Source: Sulfurimonas sp. (GTDB taxonomy: Bacteria > Campylobacterota > Campylobacteria > Campylobacterales > Sulfurimonadaceae). From it: DNA of 64,000 bases. The notes under the pieces are model-generated. The model worked only from the letters and a program-made list of their open reading frames with translations, was not told the origin of the DNA and did no database searches. The first letter of the stretch is position 1. Each line of letters begins with the position of its first letter. The position numbers and the translations under genes are program-made. The stretch lies in the NCBI GenBank assembly GCA_027013295.1, contig JALUXP010000023.1, forward strand, positions 29,964-93,963, read 5' to 3'. Positions 17,869-52,882 of the stretch are shown here, in pieces.

Positions 17869-18216
17869 TTAGTGTCCTGTATAGTTCTCACCTTTTATTT
17901 CACCATATATATCAATAAATATATAGATAGTAGCTCTTTTTTTCTTTTTGATTTTTTCATTGTAAAAGCTAACTTCCCAGTCATTAGAACTTTGATGGTT
18001 TAATTTTTCTGCAGAGAGGACAGGTACATCTCTCCAGTTTTTTGGAATTTTTTTCGTAAGAGTAAGTCTTTTGATCTCCTCTTTTGCGATTCTAATAATG
18101 GCAGTTTTATTGAGTTTTTCATATTTGTCACCATTCGCGTAGTAGTAATAGCTATAACCATTTTTTGCAGATAAGGTGCTAACAATAAGAATAAGGGTAA
18201 GTAATAGAGTTTTAAT
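17869..18216 (-). CDS. Small exported protein (possibly DUF6488-like), ATT start overlapping the crp/fnr-type gene stop
   Basis: Translation from ATT at 18216: (I/M)KTLLLTLILIVSTLSAKNGYSYYYANGDKYEKLNKTAIIRIAKEEIKRLTLTKKIPKNWRDVPVLSAEKLNHQSSNDWEVSFYNEKIKKKKRATIYIFIDIYGEIKGENYTGH*; GAGGAG Shine-Dalgarno 7 nt upstream; ORF track lists only a spurious overlapping frame here. Confidence 0.75.
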   Translation of the reverse strand: MKTLLLTLILIVSTLSAKNGYSYYYYANGDKYEKLNKTAIIRIAKEEIKRLTLTKKIPKNWRDVPVLSAEKLNHQSSNDWEVSFYNEKIKKKKRATIYIFIDIYGEIKGENYTGH

Positions 18217-18847
18217 TGAAGAACTCCTCTAACTTTTCTTTATCAATTCTTTTAGATTTTATATCAATGATGTCGTGATCTTTAAAAAACTTGAGTATTC
18301 GTGAAAGTGTCTCTGGTGAGACACCTAGCATCTCAGCGATCATGATATTTTTTGTCTCAAAAAAATCATCCGCATGAGAATAAAGATACTTTGCAACTCT
18401 CTCTTTGGAGTCTAGTACCAAGTTTGTCGAGATGATATTTTCTAGGTTTTTAATCTTTTTGATGAGAGATGTTTGAATTTGAAAAAGAAGTTTTGGATTT
18501 TTAAGCATAATTTTTTTGAGTTTTTCAAAATCTATTTTAAGATACTCCACATCAGAGTGTGCTTTTGCAGTTGCTGGATAAGGGATATGCTCAAAATTGG
18601 CTACTTCACCTATGAGTTCATATCCTTGAAAATATTTGAGCACTATCTCTTTATGATTGGAAGAGGTTTTGAAGAGTTTTATGATGCCGTTTGTGAGTAA
18701 ATAAAGATACTCAGATTTGTCACCTTCGTAAAATATAAGCCCATCCTTTGCAATCCTATGTTCCGTGCTAAAAGACTCTATTTCAGAGATGGTTGCATCA
18801 TCTAATTCGCTAAATAAAAGTATATTTTGTAGCTGTGTTCTCATCAA
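18212..18847 (-). CDS. Crp/Fnr-family transcriptional regulator (Nss-like), cysteine-free
   Basis: cNMP-binding fold EGDKSEYLYLLTNGIIKLFK; HTH KNIMIAEMLGVSPETLSRILKFFKDHDII; divergent from nos operon. Confidence 0.9.
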   Translation of the reverse strand: MMRTQLQNILLFSELDDATISEIESFSTEHRIAKDGLIFYEGDKSEYLYLLTNGIIKLFKTSSNHKEIVLKYFQGYELIGEVANFEHIPYPATAKAHSDVEYLKIDFEKLKKIMLKNPKLLFQIQTSLIKKIKNLENIISTNLVLDSKERVAKYLYSHADDFFETKNIMIAEMLGVSPETLSRILKFFKDHDIIDIKSKRIDKEKLEEFFN

Positions 18848-18906
18848 GATTCCTTAGGACAAAATTATACGCTCTTTTTGTTAAATTGACCTTACCTATT
18901 TATGAA

Positions 18907-18920
18907 TTGATATAAATCAA
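18907..18920. promoter_or_regulatory. FNR-type box 1
   Basis: TTGATATAAATCAA, perfect match to TTGATNNNNATCAA. Confidence 0.85.
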
Positions 18921-18969
18921 GAAAAGTATTTCTAAGTATATGTTTAAGTTATGAAAAATATATTATATA

Positions 18970-18983
18970 TTGATAAGAATCAA
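18970..18983. promoter_or_regulatory. FNR-type box 2
   Basis: TTGATAAGAATCAA, perfect match to TTGATNNNNATCAA; followed by TGCTATAAT extended -10 (TATAAT 19007-19012). Confidence 0.88.
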
Positions 18984-19044
18984 CACCTAAAACTTAAGAA
19001 ATATGCTATAATCTTTTAATTAATTATGTTTTAAGGACACTATA

Positions 19045-19827
19045 ATGCATTCAAGTATAAAAAAAGCAAGAATCTTCGCCACTGTAGCACTGCTTATCTT
19101 AACATTTGCCTTTACTCTTCCTATGATAGCTTTCAATGGAGCGTTAACTCAAATAGACAATCAAAAGGGTGATGAAATATCTCCTTTAACTACAGAGATA
19201 TGGAATCTCTATAACCACGGTCGTTACAAGAGCCAATCTATTCCTAAAGACGCGCATAATAATCTAACAAAGATGATAGAAAGTACATCAGAGATAGGTG
19301 TTGCTTCACTCCCAATCTGGGCTGTATCACTTGAAGCTCCAAACTACCCTAAAGAAGCTTTCCCAGAGGGTATTCCAGTTTTCTTTCACTTTGATGGTTT
19401 TAGTGGAGAAGTGCATGAGATGAATACAATCAACCATTATGTTGGTATGGACCCTATGTGGGTTGGCGGGACATTTGAGCGAAGTGTTGGTACTTATGCT
19501 TTACTTCTTTTATCTTTAATTATGATTTATTTCATCGCGTATAACAATAAAATACTCAATTATTTGATGTTGATTCCTGCTTCTCTTCCACTTTTATTTA
19601 TAGCGGATTATTCCTACTGGCTTTATTGGTTTGGACACAATCTTCATAACTGGGGTGCCTTCAAAATCAAACCATTTATGCCAACAGTTTTTGGTGATGG
19701 GAAAATTGCACAGTTTACAACACACTCCTATCCAACCATAGGTTTTTACTGTTTAGTTGTGATTAGCTTATTGAGTCTTTTAGCTTTCTTTGCAAAGCAA
19801 AAAGCACTTAAAGAGATGGAAGCTTAA
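19045..19827 (+). CDS. nosB: NosB-like membrane protein of nitrous oxide respiration cluster
   Basis: Multi-TM 260-aa protein immediately upstream of nosD, as in the epsilonproteobacterial nosZ-B-D-G-C1-C2-H-F-Y-L order. Confidence 0.75.
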   Translation: MHSSIKKARIFATVALLILTFAFTLPMIAFNGALTQIDNQKGDEISPLTTEIWNLYNHGRYKSQSIPKDAHNNLTKMIESTSEIGVASLPIWAVSLEAPNYPKEAFPEGIPVFFHFDGFSGEVHEMNTINHYVGMDPMWVGGTFERSVGTYALLLLSLIMIYFIAYNNKILNYLMLIPASLPLLFIADYSYWLYWFGHNLHNWGAFKIKPFMPTVFGDGKIAQFTTHSYPTIGFYCLVVISLLSLLAFFAKQKALKEMEA

Positions 19828-19835
19828 TCGTTACG

Positions 19836-21053
19836 ATGCCAAATATTTTCATAACTTCTTTTCTTTTCTTTGCTACTATCTTAAGTGCGGGTGTACTTCA
19901 AGATGCCATAGATAAAGCTCCTGCTGGTTCTATCATAAAGTTGCCAGCTGGTGTTTATGAAGGTAGTATAGTGATTAACAAGCCTTTAAGTATTATAGGT
20001 AAAGAGAAGGGTGTTATTTTAGATGGGATGGGAAAAGGTACAGTTGTCACATCGAAGGCCTCTTTTGTCACTTTAAAAAATCTTACCATTAGAAATAGTG
20101 GAGCAAGAAGTGATAAGGTAGATGCTGCTATAAAAATGTCTAATGCTTCGCAATGCGAGGTAAGTCACTGCACCATTAAAGATTGTTTATTTGGTATTGA
20201 TTTTCAGATAGTAAATAATTCTATAATTGCTGATAATAACATAACATCCAAAGATTTCTCACTTGGTTTGCGGGGAGATGGTATCCGCATCTGGGAATCC
20301 AATGATAATATCATCAAAAATAATTCGTTGATAAAATCTAGGGATTTAGTAGTATGGTACTCAAATGGTAATCTTATAGAGGGAAATGTTGGTGAGCATA
20401 ACCGATATTCACTCCACTTTATGCATGCTGGAAAAAATATAGTAAAAAACAATCATTTCGCTTACAATAGTGTAGGGATATTTTTCATGTATTCAAAAGA
20501 CACTATCGCTACTGGGAATGTGATCAAAAGTTCTCTTGGAGCTACAGGTATGGGCATAGGTCTAAAAGATGTATCAAATTTTATTCTCAAAGATAACACT
20601 ATTATATATTGTGCACAAGGGATTTACATAGATAGAAGTCCGTTTGAGCCAGATACACATAACTGGATAGAGGACAATAAAATTTTGTACAATGCAGAAG
20701 CTATGCATTTTCATTCGCTGAGTGAAAATAATATTATAAAAAATAATGTTATTATGGGCAATATAGAAGATATAGTAAATGATTCTCGTGCTAGTAAAAC
20801 AGATAGAAATGAGGTGGTGGGTAATTATTGGGACAATTATAGTGGTTTTGATAGGGATGGCGATAATGTAGGAGATACTCCGCATAAAATATATCAATAT
20901 GCGGATCAACTTTGGGTGTTTAATCCTGATGTGAAGTTTTTTTACGGCTCTCCTGTTATCTCTTTACTTAATTTTTTAGCAAAATTAGCTCCATTTACAA
21001 AACCTCTTTTTATATTAGAAGATGCAAAACCTAAAGTAAAACTTAAAGGATAA
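19836..21053 (+). CDS. nosD: NosD periplasmic copper-maturation protein
   Basis: Right-handed beta-helix; GDGIRIWESNDNIIKNNSL..RDLVVWYSNGNLIEGNVGEHNRYSLHFMHA; C-terminal NYWDNYSGFDRDGDNVGDTPHKIYQYADQLW. Confidence 0.92.
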   Translation: MPNIFITSFLFFATILSAGVLQDAIDKAPAGSIIKLPAGVYEGSIVINKPLSIIGKEKGVILDGMGKGTVVTSKASFVTLKNLTIRNSGARSDKVDAAIKMSNASQCEVSHCTIKDCLFGIDFQIVNNSIIADNNITSKDFSLGLRGDGIRIWESNDNIIKNNSLIKSRDLVVWYSNGNLIEGNVGEHNRYSLHFMHAGKNIVKNNHFAYNSVGIFFMYSKDTIATGNVIKSSLGATGMGIGLKDVSNFILKDNTIIYCAQGIYIDRSPFEPDTHNWIEDNKILYNAEAMHFHSLSENNIIKNNVIMGNIEDIVNDSRASKTDRNEVVGNYWDNYSGFDRDGDNVGDTPHKIYQYADQLWVFNPDVKFFYGSPVISLLNFLAKLAPFTKPLFILEDAKPKVKLKG

Positions 21054-21062
21054 GGGATAAAT

Positions 21063-21800
21063 ATGGCAAAGGTAAAAACAGATAGAAGAAAATTTATGAA
21101 ATACTCATCATTGGGTGTTTTGGGTCTTGTCCTTGGCGGTGGTATAGTATTTTCACCCTATCCAGTTCAAGCTGAAAACAGACTTCGCCCTCCAGGTGCA
21201 GTTGATGAAGAGAGATTTCTAGGTCTATGCATCAAGTGTGGGCAGTGTTTGCAAGTGTGTCCATACCATTCCATAAAGTTATCAGATATAGTAAAAGGTT
21301 ATGGTGTTGGGACACCCTACATAGATGCAAATGAGCGGGGTTGTTTCGCTTGTTCTGCTGTCCCTTGTGTTCTTGCATGTCCAAGTGGAGCACTTGATCA
21401 TCATTGTGAAAAACCTGAAGATATTCACATGGGTGTAGCTGTACTAGAATTTCCAGATACTTGTCTTGCGATGAATAATACGCCAATTCCAGAAGGCTTT
21501 AGTAATAGGATGCACAAGTTTACAGACTCTGTAAGAGATGTAACACAATTAGAGTTAGATGTGGTAAAAAAACTTGATGAGTTTGAGGGTAAACAGTGTA
21601 CGCTTTGTGCAGATATGTGCCCAATTCCAAATCCAATGAGTGCCATAGCGATGGTTTATGATAGTAGCGCGGGTGGTCATAAACCAGAGATTTATGATGG
21701 CTGTATAGGTTGTGGCGTATGTCAAGAGGTATGTCCAACGCAGACACCATCAATAGTAGTAAAACCAAGGGAGACTTATGAATCAGTTTATCAAAGTTAG
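21063..21800 (+). CDS. nosG: NosG, NapG-like periplasmic polyferredoxin
   Basis: Tat-like signal DRRKFMKYSSLGVLGL; CIKCGQCLQVCP, CFACSAVPCVLACP, CTLCADMCP, CIGCGVCQEVCP. Confidence 0.88.
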   Translation: MAKVKTDRRKFMKYSSLGVLGLVLGGGIVFSPYPVQAENRLRPPGAVDEERFLGLCIKCGQCLQVCPYHSIKLSDIVKGYGVGTPYIDANERGCFACSAVPCVLACPSGALDHHCEKPEDIHMGVAVLEFPDTCLAMNNTPIPEGFSNRMHKFTDSVRDVTQLELDVVKKLDEFEGKQCTLCADMCPIPNPMSAIAMVYDSSAGGHKPEIYDGCIGCGVCQEVCPTQTPSIVVKPRETYESVYQS

Positions 21801-22392
21801 TAGTGTAGCATTAGTAGTGAGTGCATCAATAATATTAGGTGGATGTAGCAGTGAACATGATGAAAATGCAAAAGAGGTAAAGACTCATGTTGCTACATCA
21901 GCGGGAATAGAAGTAGTAGCAAATACTCATGCAAATGAGATTAAAGTTGCACAAAAAGAGAGTGGAACTTCTGACGATAAGGCATACTACATGGACTATG
22001 GTGTTAAGTCGGCGTATCCAGAAGATGCAAAACCTGCCAATAAGGATGCATCAGTACGAATGAAACCAAGAACAAATATGGATGCAAATCTTCATGTGAG
22101 AAGTCCCTATGAACAAGTAACTGTTGCCATGATGGTCAATAAGCTCTCTAAAAAGTTTATAGTGAAGTGTTCAGCTTGTCATAGTGACTATGCCAATGGG
22201 ATTATCGGGCCATCACTTTTAGGCAAAGATTCGGATTATATATACAAAAAGTTAATATCATTCAAAAAAGACAAAACACTTAATGTCCTCATGAGTGGTT
22301 TAGTTTCACAAATGAGCGATACTGAGTTACGAGAGATGGCTAATGAAGTATATAAATTTAACTTAAAGATTAGAAAGATGAAGGAACAATAA
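21778..22392 (+). CDS. nosC1: NosC1 monoheme cytochrome c (lipoprotein)
   Basis: Lipobox LGGC; single CSACH; position between nosG and nosC2. Confidence 0.82.
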   Translation: MNQFIKVSSVALVVSASIILGGCSSEHDENAKEVKTHVATSAGIEVVANTHANEIKVAQKESGTSDDKAYYMDYGVKSAYPEDAKPANKDASVRMKPRTNMDANLHVRSPYEQVTVAMMVNKLSKKFIVKCSACHSDYANGIIGPSLLGKDSDYIYKKLISFKKDKTLNVLMSGLVSQMSDTELREMANEVYKFNLKIRKMKEQ

Positions 22393-22889
22393 TGAAAAAT
22401 ATAATTGTAGGAAGTTTAACGGCTTTAATATTGGGTCTTATGGTGTTTATAATGATGGATGATGCAGTTTATCAGGGTGGTGAACACGCAAAGGTTATTC
22501 ATGATTTTGGTGATAAACAAAATATCAGTGTTAAAACTGTAGTTGTCCAAGACAAATCAGATAGAGAAAAAGAAAATGATGAGCTCAAAGCTTTACAGGA
22601 GAAGGCTGGAAGTACGAAAAAGTTTAAAACATCACTTGAGTATAAACGAAAATGTTCCTCTTGCCATGGCGTAACAGGGAGTGGGTATCAAAATGGTAGA
22701 AAGATGATGGGTCCAAAACTTTTTGGACAAAGTGAAGCAGAGCTTTATAAAAAACTCTCAGATTTTAAAGCGGGAAGAACTGAAAATCTTGTGATGAAAG
22801 GTCTTCTTATCAAAAATACTGATAAGGATTTAAAACGATTAGCAAAAGAGATTAGTGAGTTTAAAGTAAGAGCGGCAGCTGCAAAGTAG
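22392..22889 (+). CDS. nosC2: NosC2 monoheme cytochrome c
   Basis: N-terminal anchor, single CSSCH, GPKLFGQSEAELYKKLSDFKAGR. Confidence 0.82.
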   Translation: MKNIIVGSLTALILGLMVFIMMDDAVYQGGEHAKVIHDFGDKQNISVKTVVVQDKSDREKENDELKALQEKAGSTKKFKTSLEYKRKCSSCHGVTGSGYQNGRKMMGPKLFGQSEAELYKKLSDFKAGRTENLVMKGLLIKNTDKDLKRLAKEISEFKVRAAAAK

Positions 22890-22902
22890 ATGGAGATAAA
22901 AT

Positions 22903-23808
22903 ATGGATAAGTTTAACTCAAGAGAGACCATAGCAAATACAACATTCTGGTCCACTTTTTTTAATACTACAAAAGATGGTAAAAGAATCTTTAGTTATAG
23001 AATGAAAAGATGGATCCTTGTTATCAGCATACATCTGTTGTTTTTCTTGTCTTTTTTTATCGATTTGCAGGTGCTGGAGGGGACTTTGAATGGTTCTCGA
23101 TTCTTAGGCTTTCACATGATAGATATCTATACCAATCTTCAAGTGATCGTAGCTACACATCATATACCAGTAAATATGATTATAGGGAGTTCGACAATAC
23201 TTGTTGTTTATCTTCTTGTTGGTGGGAGAAGTTATTGTTCATGGGTTTGCCCCTATGGTATCATTAGTGAGATAGGCGAGAAGATAAACAACGCTCTTGT
23301 AAAGAAAAAAATCATTAAAAAAAGAGATTTTGACCATCGAGTAAGATATATCTTTTGGGTTGCTTTTTTACTTATGTCTGCTTTTAGTGGTTATCTGGTT
23401 TTTGAGACATTTAATGTAGTGGGGATTCTCTCTCGGATGATAGTCTATGGTTGGTCTTTGGCTTTTCTTTGGGTAGTAGCTGTTTTTCTTATAGAAACTT
23501 TTTACTCACGCCGTGCTTGGTGTACCTATGTCTGTCCAATAGGGACAACTTACGGAATGATAGGAAAAGCCTCAGCACTGAGAATAGAGTGGAATGACAA
23601 CTGTGACCACTGTATGGTGTGCCATGATGTATGTTTTGAAAATCAGGTCTTAGAGATAACAAAAGCGAAGTATGATAAACAAAGAGAAGAGAAGAACATA
23701 ACCAAAGAATACATTACTGGTGCAGATTGTACGCTTTGTGGTAGATGTGTTGATGTTTGTCATGAAGATGCTCTTAACTTTGATTTTAGATTAAAAAGTT
23801 TGGTGTAA
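22903..23808 (+). CDS. nosH: NosH, NapH-like membrane ferredoxin
   Basis: CSWVCPYG, CTYVCPIG, CDHCMVCHDVC, CTLCGRCVDVC, multiple TM helices. Confidence 0.87.
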   Translation: MDKFNSRETIANTTFWSTFFNTTKDGKRIFSYRMKRWILVISIHLLFFLSFFIDLQVLEGTLNGSRFLGFHMIDIYTNLQVIVATHHIPVNMIIGSSTILVVYLLVGGRSYCSWVCPYGIISEIGEKINNALVKKKIIKKRDFDHRVRYIFWVAFLLMSAFSGYLVFETFNVVGILSRMIVYGWSLAFLWVVAVFLIETFYSRRAWCTYVCPIGTTYGMIGKASALRIEWNDNCDHCMVCHDVCFENQVLEITKAKYDKQREEKNITKEYITGADCTLCGRCVDVCHEDALNFDFRLKSLV

Positions 23809-23810
23809 AT

Positions 23811-24452
23811 ATGATAAAAGTAAATAATTTAACAAAGAAATTCGGGCAAAATATCTCACTTAATAATGTATCATGTGAATTTAAAAAAAATGATTATATC
23901 GCACTGATGGGTGCCAATGGTGCAGGTAAAACAACTCTGATCCGTTCTATACTTGGATATTATCACCCAGATGAAGGTAATGTTCTCATAGATGGTCTGG
24001 ATCCTATTAAACAGCGTGTTGAGGTACTTACAAACATCTCTTTTGTGCCACAACTTCCACCTCCTATCAAACTTTCCATTGAGGAGTTAATGAACTATGT
24101 ATCTATAAGTAGCGGGATTGACAAAGATCTTATCAAGCACTACTCAAACGAGATGAAACTAGATATCAATGCAAACATGAACAAATCATTTTTTAAACTT
24201 AGTGGAGGGATGAAACAAAAACTTCTTATCGCTATAAGTCTTGCTAAAAAAAGTGGCATTATCATCTACGATGAGCCAACAGCCAACCTTGACCCAAAAG
24301 CAAGAGATGATTTTTATAGACTTTTAAAACAAAATGAAGAGGATAAAGTATTGCTTTTCGTGACACACAGACTTGAAGAGGTAGAGGAGTTGGTAAATCG
24401 ACAAATCTACATGGACTTAGGCACAATAACATCAGATGAGAGGGTATCATGA
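23811..24452 (+). CDS. nosF: NosF ABC transporter ATP-binding protein
   Basis: GANGAGKTTLIRSILG, LSGGMKQKLLIAISLAKKSGIIIYDEPTANLDP. Confidence 0.9.
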   Translation: MIKVNNLTKKFGQNISLNNVSCEFKKNDYIALMGANGAGKTTLIRSILGYYHPDEGNVLIDGLDPIKQRVEVLTNISFVPQLPPPIKLSIEELMNYVSISSGIDKDLIKHYSNEMKLDINANMNKSFFKLSGGMKQKLLIAISLAKKSGIIIYDEPTANLDPKARDDFYRLLKQNEEDKVLLFVTHRLEEVEELVNRQIYMDLGTITSDERVS

Positions 24453-25276
24453 AAAATCTATATCTAATTGCATATCTTGATCTCAAAGAATCTATGCGGG
24501 CTAAATGGTTCTTGGTCTATTCGCTTGTATTTGGCGGTTTAATCGCTTTGTTTTTCATAGCAGGGGTAACAGAGTCGCAGGTGATGGGTTTTAGTGGACT
24601 GAGCCGTCTTTTGCTTATGTATATCCAGATTACCATCGTAATCTTACCTATATTTATCCTCATAACTACTGTGCGTTCCATCAGTGGAGATAGAGATAAC
24701 CACATCTTAGAGTATATGCTCTCTTTTGCTATCTCATTGAGACAGTATTACTGGGGTAAAATTATAGGTCGTTTTGTGACTGTATATATGCCTGTATTTT
24801 TAGCGATGGTTATCGCCATAGTATATGGCTGGGCTATTGGTGCAGCGATTCCTTGGGGTATATTTTTCCTCTATACTGGTTTACTCTTTTCCCTTTCTTC
24901 TGCTTTTTTAGGGATAGCATTTTTTATCTCTTCGTTTGTAAAATCAAGTGAAGTAGCCTTAGGGGTAGCATTTTTTATATGGATATTTTTACTTGCCTTT
25001 ATTGACATCGCACTTATCTCTTTGATGATGCAAAACAGATTTAGTGAGGAGCTTATTATCACTTTAGCACTGCTAAATCCTATGGAGATATTTCGTATAG
25101 CTGCGATCTCCTTGTTTGACCCAGAGCTAACAGTGATGGGACCTGTTGCATTTACTATATTGGATACTATGAGTCAAATGAAGTTTGTTCTTCTCTCTAT
25201 TGGGTATCCCATAGTTTTAGGTTTAGCATTTGCATATGCAGGTTTTAGTATATTTAAGAAAAAAGATTTGGTTTAG
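24449..25276 (+). CDS. nosY: NosY ABC transporter permease
   Basis: 6-TM protein directly after nosF with 4-nt overlap; VRSISGDRDNHILEYMLS. Confidence 0.87.
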   Translation: MKNLYLIAYLDLKESMRAKWFLVYSLVFGGLIALFFIAGVTESQVMGFSGLSRLLLMYIQITIVILPIFILITTVRSISGDRDNHILEYMLSFAISLRQYYWGKIIGRFVTVYMPVFLAMVIAIVYGWAIGAAIPWGIFFLYTGLLFSLSSAFLGIAFFISSFVKSSEVALGVAFFIWIFLLAFIDIALISLMMQNRFSEELIITLALLNPMEIFRIAAISLFDPELTVMGPVAFTILDTMSQMKFVLLSIGYPIVLGLAFAYAGFSIFKKKDLV

Positions 25277-25282
25277 GAGTCA

Positions 25283-25756
25283 ATGATGAAAAAAATTGTT
25301 TTAATGTTTGTGATGCTTAGTAGTTTAGTTTTGGCTTATGAGATGGACTATACAAAAGATACGAAGTGCGAAGTAAGGCATCTAAAGCTATATAAAGCAC
25401 CAAAATGGACATCAAAGATAGAGCTTCAAAATGGAAAAAAAATCTTTTTTTCCTCCCCAAAATCTATGTTTGAATTTTACTTTAGACCTGCCAATTGGGC
25501 ATATATCGGTGTAAAAAGTGAAAAAGATTTTAAAGATATCTTGGTTACTGATTATAATACAGGTAAGATCATAGAAGCAAGAGGTGCATTTTTTGTTTAT
25601 GGTTCAAATGCTACCTCTCCAGCTGGAGATGACCTAGTCCCTTTTGACTCTTATAAACAAGCAAAAGAGTTTGCTAAAAAATATAATGGAAAAAGAGTTT
25701 TTGGATTTAAAGAGGTGAGCGAAGGATTAATCAATTGGCTCAACGATGATGTATAG
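25283..25756 (+). CDS. nosL: NosL-family copper chaperone (exported, non-lipoprotein)
   Basis: Signal peptide; NGKKIFFSSPKSMFEFYF, DYNTGKIIEARGAFFVYGSNATSPAGDDLVPFDSYKQAKEFAKKYNGKRVFGFKEV. Confidence 0.8.
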   Translation: MMKKIVLMFVMLSSLVLAYEMDYTKDTKCEVRHLKLYKAPKWTSKIELQNGKKIFFSSPKSMFEFYFRPANWAYIGVKSEKDFKDILVTDYNTGKIIEARGAFFVYGSNATSPAGDDLVPFDSYKQAKEFAKKYNGKRVFGFKEVSEGLINWLNDDV

Positions 25757-25768
25757 AGGAAAAAAACG

Positions 25769-26293
25769 ATGAAAAAGCCAATGCCAAAAGATGAAGAGAT
25801 AGTACTTGATCCAAAGAGATATATAGTAAGTGAAACAGATGAAAAAGGAAAGATTACTTTTTGTAATGATTATTTCATGGAAGTCTCTGGCTACAGTGAA
25901 GAGGAACTCATAGGGAAACCGCACTCTATTGTTCGTCATCCAGATATGCCTAAGGTTGTCTTTAAGCTTTTATGGGAGACTATCTCTGCTGGAAAAAATA
26001 TCAATGCAGTGGTTAAAAATCTTGCAAAGGATGGAAGATACTACTGGATTTTTACAGAGTTTGAGATTAGAAAAGATACAGATACTGGTAAGATTATAGG
26101 GTATCATGCATCGAGAAAAACTATAAGTCCACATGTGATAGAAATCATCGCAAATTTGTACGCAGAGTTACTCAAGATAGAAAAGTCTGATGGAGTAGAA
26201 GCTTCACAAATTTACCTTATTAACTTTCTAAAAGAAAAAGGTGATGATATGAATTTCGCAAATATTATGGAAGAGATACATAGATTTTATTAG
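25769..26293 (+). CDS. Stand-alone PAS domain protein (Aer-like PAS)
   Basis: TDEKGKITFCNDYFMEVSGYSEEELIGKPHSIVRHPDMPKVVFKLLWETISAGKNINAVVKNLAKDGRYYW; no output domain. Confidence 0.88.
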   Translation: MKKPMPKDEEIVLDPKRYIVSETDEKGKITFCNDYFMEVSGYSEEELIGKPHSIVRHPDMPKVVFKLLWETISAGKNINAVVKNLAKDGRYYWIFTEFEIRKDTDTGKIIGYHASRKTISPHVIEIIANLYAELLKIEKSDGVEASQIYLINFLKEKGDDMNFANIMEEIHRFY

Positions 26294-26299
26294 GTCAAT

Positions 26300-27505
26300 A
26301 TGAGATTTTTTTTAGCACTCTTGCTACCATTATTAACTCTTCTTGCAAACCCTTTGCAAGAAGCAATTTCCCATTCAAAGCCCTACTCAACGATTAAACT
26401 TTCAGATGGGATATATCTCGGCTCCATAGTCATAAATAAGCCAATCACCATCATTGGGGTAGGAAATGGCACTGTGATAGATGGAGAGGGAGATGGTACT
26501 ATCATCACTATCAATAGTTCAGGAGTTACACTCAAAAACCTAACGATTCAAAATAGTGGATCTAGGATAGATAATCTAGATAGTGCCATCGCTCTTAATA
26601 GTGTTGAAAATATTACTATTGAAAGTTGTGCTCTTTTGGATACACTCTATGGTGTTGACATGAATATTGTAAAAAATTCTAAAATTCTAAATAACTATAT
26701 TACCTCAAAAGATTTTGATATAGAACTGCGTGGTAATGCGCTTAAGTTATACTATGCATCAAACAATGTTATCACTAACAATGTTATAGATAGTTCAAAG
26801 GATTGTACCCTGAATTACTCTCATGACAATAATTTTACTAACAACACATTTGTGAATAACAGGTTTGCAAATCATATTAGTTTGAGCCATAGAAATAGGT
26901 TTGTAGGGAATTATTATTCGCACAACTCTGTTTCACAGATGTTTATGGGTGCAAAAGATACTCTTGTAACGCATAACAAGATATTGAGTTCAGATGGGGC
27001 AGCGGGTATTGGTGTAGTGATAGGTCATGTCGCAAACTTTCGTTTTGAACATAATGTATTGCGATACAATGCAAAAGCGATATATATCGACTCAAAAGAA
27101 AAAGCCAAAGGGATGAAACGATATATCAACTACAATGAGATAGCTTATAACGGTGAGGCACTTCATTTTCATGTAGCCATCAAAGACAACACCATAACGC
27201 ACAACAAAATCTTTGGAAATATAGATGATGTTGTCAAAGACATAGCAGGGCGTTTTAGCAATACAAATATAGTGGAGTATAATTATTGGGATAGATACTC
27301 AGGGTTTGACAGAGATGGGGATAACATAGGTGATTCACCCCATGCCATCTATCAGTACGCAGACCAACTCTGGCACTATAACCATCGACTCAAATTTTTC
27401 TATGCAAGCCCCATCATGAGTATGCTTAACTTTCTTGCAAGACTTGCCCCTTTTATAGAACCAAATCTTTTATTAGTAGATGCTAAGCCCATTATGAAAG
27501 ATTAG
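26300..27505 (+). CDS. NosD-family paralog (NosD2), diverged in core motifs
   Basis: Same length and fold as upstream NosD, matching C-terminus YWDRYSGFDRDGDNIGDSPHAIYQYADQLW, but the central conserved block is divergent. Confidence 0.85.
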   Translation: MRFFLALLLPLLTLLANPLQEAISHSKPYSTIKLSDGIYLGSIVINKPITIIGVGNGTVIDGEGDGTIITINSSGVTLKNLTIQNSGSRIDNLDSAIALNSVENITIESCALLDTLYGVDMNIVKNSKILNNYITSKDFDIELRGNALKLYYASNNVITNNVIDSSKDCTLNYSHDNNFTNNTFVNNRFANHISLSHRNRFVGNYYSHNSVSQMFMGAKDTLVTHNKILSSDGAAGIGVVIGHVANFRFEHNVLRYNAKAIYIDSKEKAKGMKRYINYNEIAYNGEALHFHVAIKDNTITHNKIFGNIDDVVKDIAGRFSNTNIVEYNYWDRYSGFDRDGDNIGDSPHAIYQYADQLWHYNHRLKFFYASPIMSMLNFLARLAPFIEPNLLLVDAKPIMKD

Positions 27506-27993
27506 TTTCCGCCACACTTCCCAGCACCACATTTCATGACTGGTTCTTTTTTTGTGTCTTTTGCAAGGATACGCTTGATAATTTCATCATAGTCAAGAAA
27601 TTGTGTTTTTGCTTGAAGTTCATCTTTTGATTTGTATGCTGAAAATCCAAAAGACATTGGGGTGATATTGCCTGTAGTATAGTAAGCTTTTCTTGCATCT
27701 ATCCACTTTCCATTTTTAGCATCATTAACCCAAATCTTGACGCTGTCTTTGTAAGAGGGGTTGGTGTCTTTGAGCCAGATAGCCATACATCCAATATCAT
27801 CAAATACATATTGTTTATGGGTCTTTGGGTCTTGTAGTTGAACAGTATGCTCACGATCACTAACAACCATAACACAACGGGTACACATATCTCTATCCCA
27901 ATGTATTTTGGCAATACCTGAGTCAGATTTCTCTTGACAACCTAAAAAAAGTAGCATTAAAAGTGGAGTAAGGATGAGTTTAATTGTTTTCAT
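27502..27993 (-). CDS. nosL: NosL lipoprotein (copper chaperone), start corrected from ORF-track 28086
   Basis: MKTIKLILTPLLMLLFLGCQEK lipobox; IHWDRDMCTRCVMVVSDREHTVQLQDPKTHKQYVFDDIGCMAIWLKDT; C-terminal MKCGAGKCGGN. Confidence 0.88.
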   Translation of the reverse strand: MKTIKLILTPLLMLLFLGCQEKSDSGIAKIHWDRDMCTRCVMVVSDREHTVQLQDPKTHKQYVFDDIGCMAIWLKDTNPSYKDSVKIWVNDAKNGKWIDARKAYYTTGNITPMSFGFSAYKSKDELQAKTQFLDYDEIIKRILAKDTKKEPVMKCGAGKCGGN

Positions 27994-28027
27994 GGTTAAA
28001 GTATAGCACTCATGAAATAAAATCTTA

Positions 28028-28041
28028 TTGATATATATCAG
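28028..28041 (-). promoter_or_regulatory. FNR-type box upstream of nosL
   Basis: TTGATATATATCAG on + strand (CTGATATATATCAA on -), 9/10 match to the TTGAT/ATCAA half-sites; TGCTATACT extended -10 follows on the minus strand (28000-28008). Confidence 0.75.
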
Positions 28042-28073
28042 AAAATTTAAATTCTTTTTATCTGCCCTCTTAC

Positions 28074-28451
28074 TTAATTTAGCCATGTGATTGCATCATC
28101 ATAATTATCAAAATATTTTATTTCGCCAGATACAAACCAACTACCAATTTTTGCAGCCATTTTTTGCCAATCTTTATTTCCATAAATAGCAATTTTCTCA
28201 AACTCATTACCATGTTTAAGTCCAAGTTTGAAATCATCCCACGCTGCCCTTGGCTCCCATCCATTTAATTCTGTCCCATCAATTAAGGCTTTTACCTTTG
28301 GTTCTTTAACTTCCTCTAAAGCTGCATCAATCATAGGTATGATTATTTCATAATCCTTATGAGTAAGTGTCCCTTGTGGCTTAAGAGATAAAAAGAAGTT
28401 ACCATTAACTCTTTCTATACCGATAGATAATCCATGTCTTTGTAATTTCAT
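28074..28451 (-). CDS. SpoIIAA-like (STAS/SEC14-type) protein
   Basis: GTLTHKDYEIIIPMIDAALEEVKEPKVKALIDGTELNGWEPRAAWDDFKLGLKHGNEFEKIAIYGNKDWQKMAAKIGSWFVSGEIKYFDNYDDAITWL. Confidence 0.85.
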   Translation of the reverse strand: MKLQRHGLSIGIERVNGNFFLSLKPQGTLTHKDYEIIIPMIDAALEEVKEPKVKALIDGTELNGWEPRAAWDDFKLGLKHGNEFEKIAIYGNKDWQKMAAKIGSWFVSGEIKYFDNYDDAITWLN

Positions 28452-41870: not shown

Positions 41871-44189
41871 ATGAGTTTAGCAAATGACTACTTTTTGTTG
41901 TATCATGGCATCTCTTTTGAAGAACAAAATAGTTCTCAACACTTAAGCATTACTTTTCATGAAGAGACTTTAAGTCTCTTCTCTCTTGTACTCATTACCA
42001 CAAGAAAAGAGTTTGACAAATACATCTCTTTGCAATCTTTTCTCTCTCTTTTCCCTTTGCTTAAACAAACAAAACCAAAAAACATGCAAGCCCTCTATCT
42101 TTTACAGTATAAAATAATACAGTTTTTTCAAAGCAATAATTCTCAAAAAAACAGTGCATTACTACAAAAGTATTTTGCAAAGTTAAAGGAAGAAGAGATT
42201 CTTAGTTATGATAATTATAAAAAAATCAATTCTTTATTTGCATATGCTGAGAATAGTGTTTTAAAGTACAAACAAGAGCCACAAAATGAGTTTGTATTTC
42301 AAAAAGAGAAAGAAAAACTTCTACAACATATAAAAACCCTGCAAATACAGATGCAAGATAAGGAACTTTTACAAGAACTTCAAAGAACATTTGATTACTT
42401 GCATAATCAAAAGTTTTCCATTGGTATTACAGGAGTTATCAATGCTGGAAAGTCCACTATGCTTAATGCTCTTTTGAAAAAAAAGTTGCTTGGTAGTTCT
42501 GTTGTTCCTGAAACTGCTAATTTAAGTGTCATTAAGTATGCTCAAAAAGAGGAAGCCCGTATTTTCTACTGGAATACTATGGAGTGGCAAAAACTTTTAG
42601 AGGCTGCCCAAGAGACACAAGCAATGCACGAGTTTATACAAGAGACTCAAGATCTATTTGGAGATGAACTTCACTCTCTGATACTAGAAAAATCTAAAGT
42701 ACAAAAAGTAGCCGTACAAGAACTCTCTGTATTTACATCTGCAAAGTCTCCCAAAAAAATCTGTAATCTCATAAAGTATGTAGAACTTAGCACACCTCTT
42801 GATTTTTTACAAGATGGCATTGAAATAGTCGATACTCCTGGTCTTGATGACCCTGTTACTCAAAGAGAAGAGATAACAAAAGAGTATATTAATAACTGTG
42901 ACATGATGCTTCACTTAATGAATGTCTCACAAAGTGCGACTATTAAAGATGTCGTTTTCATTATAGACGCCCTTCTCTACCAAAATGTTACAAAACTTTT
43001 AGTAGTCATTACTAGAGCGGATACTGTTTCAAAAGAGGAACTCCAGCAGGTTATAACATATACAAAAGAGTCCATCAAACAAGAGCTATATAAACAAAAT
43101 AAAGATGCTAAACTTGACTATATTTTACAAACCATAGAGTTTATACCCATCTCTGCTTTGATGGCTTTATTGCATAGAACGGGACGAGAAGAAGAAGCAC
43201 TAAGAGATGGTTTTTCACTTGAAGATACGGGAATTCTTCAAATCGAAGAGTACCTCAAAGAAAATCTTTTTGGTGCTTCTAGCATTAAAAGTGAACTTAT
43301 CATTAAATCTGCTCAAACACAGGTTTTACAGACTATAAACAAACAAAAGAATGCCCTTGTTTATGAACTACAACTCTCTACAAAATCAAAACAAGAGTTA
43401 CAAAAAGAACTTGATGCTTTAGAGATCAAAAAAGAGAAAGACATGCAATATATTGCACTTATTTATGAAGATATACTTGCATATAAACAGAGTCTCCAAA
43501 GAGAGCTTCAAAGCTCAAACAACTTTTTACAAGTAGAATTTCTTGAACTTAAAACGCGAATAAAACAAAGAGTTGTTTCTGATGTCAGATATTCTCTTCA
43601 ACAGAACAATACCTCTCCAAAGGCATCAAGAATAGAGGCTATAATCCAAACAGCAGTAAAAGATGGCATTATTGATATTGTTCGAGACTATAGATACAAA
43701 CTCATTAAAAAAATTCATGCTATTTCAGAACAGTATCTTTTAAAATATCAAGATTTTGCTTCTAGTTTTGATGAAGATATAGAGGTGTATGATATTGACA
43801 CTCTTTTTCTCAAAGAGTTTAAAACTGGTTTTTTACTCTCAAATAATGAGTATATCGTTCATCCTATTGTGGAACTCCTTAAAGATGTTAAACTTAAAAA
43901 GATAGAAAGTTTTGATGCATCGGTAGATAACTCCATACAAACTACGAATAAAACTTTACAAGAGAACACACAACAAAGAGCAAATAATCTTGCTTCAGAA
44001 TTAATTCAGTTCTATTTTATGCAACTTGCTTTACCTATTCAAACAATACAACAGAAACTTCTCCATGAGCAGGAAAGCCTTAAGAGATACCTAGCTGAGG
44101 ACACATCCCTTGAGAGTTCTCTTGAAATTCATGCAAAAATCAAAAAACTTGATACTTTAAAGAATAACATTCAAAGTGAAATTTCATGA
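41871..44189 (+). CDS. Bacterial dynamin-like GTPase 1
   Basis: P-loop GVINAGKSTMLNALL; DTPGLDDP; long coiled-coil; downstream of frdCAB. Confidence 0.88.
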   Translation: MSLANDYFLLYHGISFEEQNSSQHLSITFHEETLSLFSLVLITTRKEFDKYISLQSFLSLFPLLKQTKPKNMQALYLLQYKIIQFFQSNNSQKNSALLQKYFAKLKEEEILSYDNYKKINSLFAYAENSVLKYKQEPQNEFVFQKEKEKLLQHIKTLQIQMQDKELLQELQRTFDYLHNQKFSIGITGVINAGKSTMLNALLKKKLLGSSVVPETANLSVIKYAQKEEARIFYWNTMEWQKLLEAAQETQAMHEFIQETQDLFGDELHSLILEKSKVQKVAVQELSVFTSAKSPKKICNLIKYVELSTPLDFLQDGIEIVDTPGLDDPVTQREEITKEYINNCDMMLHLMNVSQSATIKDVVFIIDALLYQNVTKLLVVITRADTVSKEELQQVITYTKESIKQELYKQNKDAKLDYILQTIEFIPISALMALLHRTGREEEALRDGFSLEDTGILQIEEYLKENLFGASSIKSELIIKSAQTQVLQTINKQKNALVYELQLSTKSKQELQKELDALEIKKEKDMQYIALIYEDILAYKQSLQRELQSSNNFLQVEFLELKTRIKQRVVSDVRYSLQQNNTSPKASRIEAIIQTAVKDGIIDIVRDYRYKLIKKIHAISEQYLLKYQDFASSFDEDIEVYDIDTLFLKEFKTGFLLSNNEYIVHPIVELLKDVKLKKIESFDASVDNSIQTTNKTLQENTQQRANNLASELIQFYFMQLALPIQTIQQKLLHEQESLKRYLAEDTSLESSLEIHAKIKKLDTLKNNIQSEIS

Positions 44190-46222
44190 GTTCATTTGCA
44201 AATATATTTCTAAACTTCATTCAAGAATACAAAGAGGCTTATAGTAAAAAAGAACTTACCTACGAAAACTCTTTTTTAGGTGATGTTCATAAGATAAAAG
44301 ACAAACTCCTCAATGAAAGATTTTTGCCCTCTTTAGAGCTCAAACAAGTTTTAGATAAACAAATTCGCCGTTGTATGTACCCTATGGAAGTGGCTATTGT
44401 TGGACAATTTTCCTCAGGAAAGTCTACTTTTTTAAATGCCCTACTCTCCAAAGATATACTTCCCATAGGGATTACTCCTGTTACATCAAAGGTAAACTTT
44501 ATAAACTATGGTGCAGAATATAAACTCAAAATCACTTATAACTCAGGGGGACAAGAGTTCTATCCTATTGAGAGTATTTCGCAGTTTACAGACCAAAGAG
44601 TTTCTTATATTGATGACATAAAATATCTTACAATTTATGCTCCTTTAGAAATTTTAAAAGATATATCATTTGTAGATACGCCAGGGCTTAATTCTCAGTC
44701 TCAAAGTGATACACAAACAACAAAAAATGTCCTTAAAGATGTAGGTGGTATTATTTGGTTAAGTATGATAGACAATGCTGGTAAACTCAGTGAACAAGAG
44801 ATATTAGATGAATACATGCCCTCTTTTCAAACAAAATCACTCTGTGTCTTAAACCAAAAAGATAAATTTACTCCAGAGCAGGTGGAGACCACAAAAGAGT
44901 ACATACAAGAGAAGTTTTCAAAGTATTTCTCTCAAGTAAGTGCCATCTCTGCAAAAATGGCACTTGATGCAAGAGCTTTGGAAAAACATATTCTTATTGA
45001 AAATTCCTTAGACAAAGTTATTAAAGATTTCACTTTAAATCTTAAAGAAAATTTTAATGCACAAAGCCTCAACTTTTTTGAAAAAAACTTTGGAGCATTT
45101 AAAGAGGAAATAAAGTCTATACAGAGTAAAGATATTACAAAGAACAAAGCACTTATAAAAGAGTCCAATATCCAAGAGGTTTTAGACTTTATTAACAATA
45201 TAATGCAACCGAATGCTACAGTAGCTAAGGAAAATGCTATCAAAAATGATTTAACGAATATCTGCAATATTTTATATACAGAGTATGAAACGATGCTAGG
45301 TGTTTATGATTCGCTTATTTTTGTTTTGCAAAACGCAAAAGAGCCTATAGAAAAATCTTTTCAAAACATAAATAGACTCTATTCTACTCAACTACTTGAT
45401 GTTTTCAATAGTCTTGAGGAAATTCTTCAAGAAATTGCTTCGCAAATCTATACCAATATAACAATACAAAAAATAAAAAAATATCAAACATCTCAGAGTG
45501 CTTTTTTGAAACAAGAAAAAATACAAAAGATAGAGTTTGAAAGTTTTTTTATTGATACAGATGCTGTCTTAAAAAACTTATTTTATGATGATGAAAAAAT
45601 AGCAAAAATGATAAAACGCTCTATGAAAAATCTTACACTTATAGAATCTAAAATCAGTAATTCCCTTGAGAATATTTATGAACAAACGCATACACAAGTC
45701 TCGCAATGGAAGGCACATTACCTACTCATAAAAAAAAGTAGAGCAATAGGTTCTGATCTAGAATTTTCAAATATAAGAAGGTTTGCCTCACAAACTTATG
45801 AAAGCATTTTAGAAGATTTTCACATTTGTATACTGGCAGATATTTCTCATCTTAAAAGAGAAAACGCCTACTTTAACGCAACTCTTTCTTATAGTAATCA
45901 ACAAAAAGTGCTTTCTTGTATGCTTCACTTTGAGGAACAGATAAAACAATCTGAAGAGTTGCATGCAAAAAATCCAAGTCAATTTACTATACAAAAACCA
46001 CGAGAAGATGAAATCTTAGAAAAACTCAAAGAGAACTTCTCCTTTTTAAAAGTAGAAGAGTTCTTATCCATACATAGAAACTACCTCTTTAAAATACTTA
46101 AAAAATCTCAAGCTAATTATTTGCAAATTAATGAGGAAAAAATCAAGTTTTTACTAGAGTGCAAAGAACCCTACCTTAAAAAAATCTCTATTTTACAAGA
46201 GATTTCTGAAACTTTTATATAG
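44186..46222 (+). CDS. Bacterial dynamin-like GTPase 2
   Basis: P-loop GQFSSGKSTFLNALL; DTPGLNSQ; NQKDKF; overlaps the preceding gene by 4 nt. Confidence 0.88.
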   Translation: MSSFANIFLNFIQEYKEAYSKKELTYENSFLGDVHKIKDKLLNERFLPSLELKQVLDKQIRRCMYPMEVAIVGQFSSGKSTFLNALLSKDILPIGITPVTSKVNFINYGAEYKLKITYNSGGQEFYPIESISQFTDQRVSYIDDIKYLTIYAPLEILKDISFVDTPGLNSQSQSDTQTTKNVLKDVGGIIWLSMIDNAGKLSEQEILDEYMPSFQTKSLCVLNQKDKFTPEQVETTKEYIQEKFSKYFSQVSAISAKMALDARALEKHILIENSLDKVIKDFTLNLKENFNAQSLNFFEKNFGAFKEEIKSIQSKDITKNKALIKESNIQEVLDFINNIMQPNATVAKENAIKNDLTNICNILYTEYETMLGVYDSLIFVLQNAKEPIEKSFQNINRLYSTQLLDVFNSLEEILQEIASQIYTNITIQKIKKYQTSQSAFLKQEKIQKIEFESFFIDTDAVLKNLFYDDEKIAKMIKRSMKNLTLIESKISNSLENIYEQTHTQVSQWKAHYLLIKKSRAIGSDLEFSNIRRFASQTYESILEDFHICILADISHLKRENAYFNATLSYSNQQKVLSCMLHFEEQIKQSEELHAKNPSQFTIQKPREDEILEKLKENFSFLKVEEFLSIHRNYLFKILKKSQANYLQINEEKIKFLLECKEPYLKKISILQEISETFI

Positions 46223-51465: not shown

Positions 51466-51573
51466 AAATATCCTTTAACTCAAATTATACAATTAAAAAT
51501 TAAGAATTCAAATAGAAGAGAAGCTTTTAGAAGCACTTAAGAGGGCATTAAGTTGGAGGGGGAAGTGTTTTCT

Positions 51574-51600
51574 TTCACACTCTTAAAAGAGGTGAAAGTA
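51574..51600 (-). terminator. Hairpin directly after the heme-porin stop codon
   Basis: CTTTCAC-ACTCTTAAAAGAG-GTGAAAG stem-loop adjacent to the stop at 51601; no clear U-tract. Confidence 0.45.
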
Positions 51601-52776
51601 TTAGAGTGCTAAATCTAAAGCAAGCATAAGATTGTGTTTATTGCTATCTTTATCGAGCAGATACATATAACCAAATCTAAATTGGACATTTTCTCTATAA
51701 AAATATCTTGCACCAATCAAAGTTGCATCATCAGAAGAGTTAGCCACCTTACCGTTATTTGCTATCTTATAGCCTGCTGAGAGCATAAATACTCTTGGTA
51801 TCACAGCTACTTCACTTGAAAGTGTCGCTGAATTTTTATCTTTAAATGTTACTGCATAGAGTGAGTTTTTATTATGTTTTGCATTTGCATAGTCAGCAAA
51901 AATGCTAAGAGGAACAGTTCCTACAAGACCACGAGCTTGAATTTTTAAAGCGTAAGAATTTGTACTTTGTTTCAAAACAGATGCATTCTTTGCTGAACCT
52001 AGTATCTGTGAAGTTCCCCACCACATCTCTGCCCCAAAGTCTATGTCCCAACTTCCAACTTGAGGAGTAAGCGCTAGACTTGCAAAGTTTGCAGGTTTTA
52101 CTTGACTAACACTTCCATTTGTTGGTACCCATACAGAGTAAGCTGCATTCCATAAGTCATTGTATACATAGAGCGAAATTCCTTCTGCTGGTAGATCTCC
52201 ATTTTGTACATAATTTTGAGATGCGAACATATCTCCAAGAGAAGTCACAACGCTCCCTGCATTAAGTAAATTTGTAACAGAAGAGGGACCATCGCCATCT
52301 GTTAAATATGGCACAACGCCGATAGTGTAGTCTGAAACATTGTAGATAAAAGGTAGACGCATATTTGCGAGTCCAAATGTACTCGTTTGTGCATCATAAC
52401 CCATCTCTGTAAAAGTACCTACTCCATTTGCTATACGCCCACCAACAAATACAGAAGCTTCATTAGGAATGTTAAGTACTGCTGATGATGAGCTTGATTT
52501 TGTAATACCAAAATTTGCCATCAATGACATATTTAGCATGCCTGTTAAAGACATGAACTTATCTTTCTCACTATCTTTAATAGTTGCTTGTGTTCCTACC
52601 ATTGTATAGCCACTTGCTTTAAATGAACGACCAAAACGATTGAGAGCAGGGTAACCACTCTGTGAATGACAGGCACTACAAGATACACCCATTTGTCTCG
52701 AAAATGCTGGTAATGCTATGGCATTACTGACAAAAACTGATAAACCTAAGAACCCCATTATGATAATTTTTTTTAT
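51601..52776 (-). CDS. Outer-membrane beta-barrel with N-terminal monoheme c motif (Cyc2-like fused cytochrome-porin); ATA start at 52776 proposed (ORF track ATG 52758)
   Basis: Signal (KKIIIMGFLGLSVFVSNAIA)LPAFSRQMGVSCSACHSQSGYPALNRFGRSFKASGY then amphipathic beta-strand sequence ending in LMLALDLAL. Confidence 0.75.
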   Translation of the reverse strand: MKKIIIMGFLGLSVFVSNAIALPAFSRQMGVSCSACHSQSGYPALNRFGRSFKASGYTMVGTQATIKDSEKDKFMSLTGMLNMSLMANFGITKSSSSSAVLNIPNEASVFVGGRIANGVGTFTEMGYDAQTSTFGLANMRLPFIYNVSDYTIGVVPYLTDGDGPSSVTNLLNAGSVVTSLGDMFASQNYVQNGDLPAEGISLYVYNDLWNAAYSVWVPTNGSVSQVKPANFASLALTPQVGSWDIDFGAEMWWGTSQILGSAKNASVLKQSTNSYALKIQARGLVGTVPLSIFADYANAKHNKNSLYAVTFKDKNSATLSSEVAVIPRVFMLSAGYKIANNGKVANSSDDATLIGARYFYRENVQFRFGYMYLLDKDSNKHNLMLALDLAL

Positions 52777-52882
52777 TTTATCTCCTTATGCAACTTTCTT
52801 TATGAAAAAGCTTTCATTATTCTCAATTAAGTGCTTCTTCTCTGGAGAGGCACTTATAATGATTGATTATAACATAAACTTT

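Follow-up and report, generated by a model that had tools for sequence, protein, structure and literature searches.

The closest described relatives of the protein studied here are the Cyc2 proteins, among them Cyc2 of A. ferrooxidans, Cyc2-PV1 of Mariprofundus and Cyt572 of Leptospirillum (PMC8406198, PMC7029218). Cyc2 proteins have a signal peptide, a single N-terminal CxxCH and a 16-stranded outer-membrane porin domain, and they are at least 365 residues long (PMC8406198). The motif AxPxFAR[QK][TY] upstream of the CxxCH has been called unique to Cyc2, and in the consensus a PxL follows four residues after the heme histidine (PMC8406198). Cyc2 sequences have been sorted into three clusters, and the potential of Cyc2-PV1 is 208 mV (PMC8406198). 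Cluster 1 sequences are known from Campylobacterota (PMC12442345); one Sulfurimonas study reports no Cyc2 (PMC10066037).

The heme-porin gene and its relation to Cyc2

Here we describe a Cyc2-like gene in a 64,000-nucleotide stretch of Sulfurimonas DNA (the window). The gene is a single frame of 391 residues on the minus strand, where the 391 codons count an ATA start, and its stop codon lies at 51603-51601. The locus has the following features:

51601..52776, minus strand: Cyc2-like monoheme cytochrome-porin of subfamily A (translation, full-length orthologues, profile match to canonical-type Cyc2-like proteins)
52714..52776, minus strand: predicted signal peptide, residues 1-21, ending in SNAIA before LPAF (sequence and orthologue alignment, judged by eye)
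52600..52716, minus strand: heme domain motif, residues 21-59, ALPAFSRQMGVSCSACHSQSGYPALNRFGRSFKASGYTM (contains the majority of the invariant residues of a 38-member alignment)
52666..52680, minus strand: CSACH heme attachment site, residues 33-37 (sequence, 38-member alignment)
51604..52575, minus strand: predicted outer-membrane barrel, residues 68-391 (profile match of this region alone, weak porin matches)
52782..52787, minus strand: Shine-Dalgarno site AAGGAG (conserved in the nearest orthologue, L022)
52774..52776, minus strand: ATA in the place of the ancestral start codon (L022 and L024 have ATG)
51572..51598, no strand assigned: palindromic hairpin directly 3' of the stop codon (conserved in L022)

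The reading frame, the heme motif, their coordinates and the Shine-Dalgarno site had been proposed in a first-pass annotation, and all are borne out on the sequence. Full-length orthologues exist, with identities to the window protein of 86% (L022), 69% (L024) and about 44-46% for further ones. Between the window gene and L022 dN/dS is about 0.21 (0.075/0.356). Hence we are dealing with a real gene, and a chance reading frame is ruled out. The gene is under purifying selection and, apart from its start codon, appears maintained.

The host genome (G000) is of the Sulfurimonas type, 2.06 Mb in size, 99% complete and split into 134 contigs. The window gene is its sole match to the query protein, and it stands alone. 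A pseudouridine-synthase-like gene follows 3' on the same strand, and on the 5' side rsmA and an RNase J-like gene lie divergently (neighbours named by reading their sequences). No T run follows the hairpin behind the stop codon, the terminator scan did not list the hairpin, and no Rfam RNA was found near the gene. Elsewhere in the window, a nos-type accessory cluster occupies positions 18212-28086, with genes that by eye are of the NosD, ferredoxin, cytochrome and ABC types; the sole nosZ found lies on the same contig, about 43 kb from this cluster (G000:C23:3983-5776). Two adjacent large genes at 41871-46222 give the impression of a dynamin-type GTPase pair.

The first-pass annotation had read the product as a Cyc2-like fused monoheme cytochrome-porin, and profile comparisons agree. 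The subfamily profile matches plasmid and Campylobacterota group C sequences over the full length (hhalign 99.7%, E=1.5e-25, 337 columns). The barrel region alone still matches the canonical-type profile (92%, E=6e-7), whereas reversed controls stay below 1%. In the 38-member alignment the invariant residues fall mostly in the heme region (A21, F25, Q28, C33, C36, H37, L45, G49, R50 and F52). The window protein and a canonical-type Campylobacterota query also retrieve the same nine plasmid Cyc2-like records. An incidental CxxCH in a non-heme porin is rejected because the heme region contains the majority of the residues that are invariant among the 38 relatives and because both queries yield the same plasmid loci.

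Further evidence on the barrel comes from porins. The 38-member profile weakly matches the C-terminal barrel of DcaP/OprP-type porins (DcaP, 6eus, E=0.005), which differ from the window protein in having no heme domain, and a few relatives match porin models. The amphipathicity of the barrel region is marginal (P=0.08), and an AlphaFold model built from two sequences only has a pLDDT of 27. Searches of Pfam, NCBIfam and, with the single sequence, PDB gave no match to the window protein, and a scan of viral contigs gave no relative. Homology thus supports the fused heme and barrel reading well, the barrel itself being predicted.

How close is the window protein to Cyc2? Both are single chains of similar length with an N-terminal CxxCH, an F-x-RQ before it, a P-x-L after it and a barrel region that matches in profile. 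The 391 residues of the window protein exceed the minimum length of Cyc2, and its only CSACH lies near the N-terminus behind a hydrophobic leader (by eye). However, its motif ALPAFSRQM departs from the Cyc2 motif at two positions, with S for A and M for T/Y. Relatives regain the A at the first of these positions, and several keep the M. The P-x-L is present as PAL five residues past the heme histidine, one residue further than in most canonical-type sequences.

Plasmids carry Cyc2-like genes labelled 'cytochrome C' in Caballeronia, Paraburkholderia, Ideonella, Methylocystis and Acidithiobacillus (best tblastn E=4e-11 for the window protein as query). They have the same heme motif and barrel architecture, with an identity of about 28-44% that refers to the matched N-terminal part only. 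In contrast to the window gene, which has no cytochrome gene next to it, the plasmid genes are accompanied by c-type cytochrome genes, either adjacent or nearby.

Relatives across Campylobacterota carry the Cyc2-like heme region. In a tree of 42 proteins, a branch with 100/100 support splits groups A, B, D and E from a canonical-type group, which here means plasmid sequences and Campylobacterota group C. The window protein is a member of the Cyc2-like superfamily and lies in a divergent clade of Campylobacterota, apart from the canonical-type proteins sampled. Subfamily A may still fall into Cluster 3 of Cyc2, which is very diverse. Therefore we call it Cyc2-like and not Cyc2.

In group D (L055, L056, L061), Cyc2-like genes occur as tandem pairs with an adjacent small monoheme cytochrome gene, an arrangement more suggestive of an electron-transfer unit. 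One group B gene is apparently split into two frames, as by a frameshift (L119 5519-6849, G507). Copies of the G452 type were seen in another family (L138, L139, L140, L047), with a SHOCT-domain lipoprotein-like gene directly adjacent.

Start codon and state of the window copy

An ATA at 52776, upstream of the first in-frame ATG, had been suggested as the start of the gene. The two nearest relatives, L022 and L024, have an ATG at exactly this position, and in L022 the AAGGAGATAAAAT spacing of the Shine-Dalgarno site is identical. The in-frame ATG at 52758 lies far from the Shine-Dalgarno site, and the two relatives together with the spacing in L022 rule it out as the ancestral start. The suggested position is thus confirmed. 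Since both relatives have an ATG there, either the start codon changed to ATA on the window lineage or the consensus of the 134-contig assembly is wrong here.

The window copy could then be a stray that is weakly expressed or silent and heading for loss, whatever its relatives do. Beyond the ATA in place of the ATG of the orthologues, the homology to L022 spans only the stretch from the Shine-Dalgarno site through the hairpin, and the flanks differ. Upstream of rsmA in 11 relatives (flanks of up to 1.5 kb) we found neither the heme-porin gene nor the pseudouridine-synthase-like gene, and a clean empty site is not defined. The window branch is also longer than the L022 branch, with 26 against 8 amino-acid changes and 26 against 14 synonymous changes. 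However, the excess of amino-acid over synonymous changes is not significant (p=0.32), the frame and the heme motif are intact, and the ATA may be a mistake of the assembly or may serve as a weak start. Overall we regard a decaying copy as rather unlikely. Such a fate concerns the window copy and can go together with any function of the family.

Copper genes beside members of subfamily A

Six of the 13 subfamily A loci have copper genes as neighbours (CopA oxidase, CopB, Cu-ATPase, YtkA, DUF302 or Cus efflux). These loci come from three genera and show three gene arrangements. G406 and G402 carry the gene in a copper cluster, flanked by copB and a DUF302 gene. The cluster comprises YtkA, a DsbD-like protein, CopA (TIGR01480, 785 bits), CopB, DUF302 and a copper-type P-ATPase, and G448 has the heme-porin gene in the same cop setting. 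In another genus (G572) the gene adjoins DUF302. In a third (G533) one of two copies adjoins genes for a Cu-type ATPase, YtkA and TolC/CusB/CusA. In L022 it is followed by a YtkA gene whose product is 70% identical to the YtkA of the cop cluster. The assembly of G448 holds two versions of the cop/Cyc2-like cluster on different contigs (L062 and L097), perhaps a strain mixture.

The remaining seven loci (the window, G490, G452, the second copy of G533, G670, G673 and G700) have no copper genes in the flanks examined. Of the loci in G670, G673 and G700, two adjoin a two-component system that in NCBIfam comes closest to the heavy-metal CopRS/CusRS type, at a score below the cut-off. Because G402, G406 and G448 represent one lineage, the copper settings reflect few independent events. 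At the genome level, co-occurrence with CopB is borderline (p=0.05, nine genomes including two group E members). The same cop cluster is present without the heme-porin gene in G009 and G452. Hence the heme-porin gene is an accessory to the cluster.

The CopA/CopB (PcoA/PcoB) system shares its gene cluster with the heme-porin in G402, G406 and G448, and copper in the periplasm or at the outer membrane would be the target of both. Neither the multicopper oxidase CopA nor the outer-membrane protein CopB, which has no heme, is homologous to the heme-porin. PcoAB (CopAB) has been discussed as a possible porin-oxidase pair (PMC5566968). The window genome gave no match to CopA or CopB, and the window copy is far from any copper gene. 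A Cus-type efflux cluster is present in this genome. Its P-type ATPases were considered as counterparts of the cop-cluster enzyme and set aside as remote (36% identity or less). In the heme-porin itself no copper-binding motif is evident.

Candidate functions and their implications

Our tentative preference, held at somewhat less than an even chance, is that the window protein is a divergent Cyc2-like outer-membrane heme-porin that oxidises a metal ion and feeds its electron into the respiratory chain, with copper as the best-supported candidate. The copper role is inferred from the genes around relatives; the copy in the window stands alone, has a changed start codon and belongs to a genome that lacks CopA and CopB. 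For the mechanism of subfamily A we take the published Cyc2 model as an analogy (PMC8406198). Everything here goes beyond homology: we infer the topology of the barrel, the position of the heme, the direction of the electron, the copper substrate and the expression of the window copy.

The single c-type heme, in the N-terminal part, would lie where a one-chain outer-membrane barrel opens to the periplasm. A small metal ion in its reduced, dissolved form would enter the pore, give one electron to the heme and so become oxidised. The electron would then move from the heme to periplasmic cytochromes of the respiratory chain; the genome encodes several small cytochrome c domains as possible acceptors. 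In subfamily A the candidate ion is copper, which would be oxidised from Cu(I) to Cu(II); the potential of this couple is close to the 208 mV of Cyc2-PV1. The heme-porin may complement or replace the oxygen-dependent CopA, including during respiration without oxygen, and Cu(I) oxidation would be possible when oxygen is too scarce for CopA.

Instead, the protein could work like canonical Cyc2, as a porin that oxidises Fe(II) or takes up electrons more generally; soluble Fe(II) would reduce the heme in the pore, and electrons would flow to periplasmic cytochromes. Iron oxidation is known for three diverse Cyc2 proteins, Campylobacterota have Cluster 1 Cyc2 (PMC8406198, PMC12442345), and the Cyc2-like homology runs over the full length. 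However, the clade is separate from the canonical-type group sampled, the Cyc2 motif is altered at two positions, and the cytochrome gene that accompanies the plasmid genes is absent. Several relatives also lie near copper genes rather than iron-oxidation genes. In the first-pass annotation, Fe(II), sulfide or cathodes had been put forward as sources of the electrons. This proposal finds no support here because the protein falls into a separate clade, lacks cytochrome genes beside it and has relatives with copper neighbours. We consider iron oxidation unlikely. Copper-detoxification genes often surround the closest relatives, so a role in copper chemistry is no less likely than one in iron oxidation.

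Copper may also be involved in another way. As a heme-bearing metal channel of the outer membrane, the protein would use its heme to sense or gate copper transport, or to reduce Cu(II) for uptake, and would not feed respiration. The copper-gene neighbours fit such a channel, and so do other Cyc2-like groups of Campylobacterota that sit inside cobalamin gene clusters, a setting in line with general metal handling. These are L053, L057 and L059 in group C and L048 and L049 in group E, whose clusters contain BtuF/BtuC/BtuD-like uptake genes and CobB/CobQ-like genes. These cobalamin settings, seen in two different groups, also suggest metal handling rather than iron oxidation. A channel is nevertheless quite improbable, as the characterised relatives are electron-transfer proteins (PMC8406198).

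Metal oxidation with copper as the favoured ion can be extended to the whole subfamily and beyond. Subfamily A would then oxidise Cu(I) and deliver the electron to the respiratory chain as an oxygen-independent alternative to multicopper oxidases. The Cyc2-like proteins of Campylobacterota would broadly serve metal homeostasis (copper here, cobalt/cobalamin elsewhere) and not energy-yielding iron oxidation. In this full form we hold the proposal to be doubtful. Judged by titles and the beginnings of abstracts, none of the papers listed in searches of one open-access library describes a copper-associated Cyc2-like group.

The gene cyc2 serves as a marker for microbial iron oxidation. If a copper-tied Cyc2-like clade exists, iron oxidation could be wrongly ascribed to Sulfurimonas and related bacteria when it is called from the motif. 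Such a clade would also point to an anaerobic route of copper detoxification.
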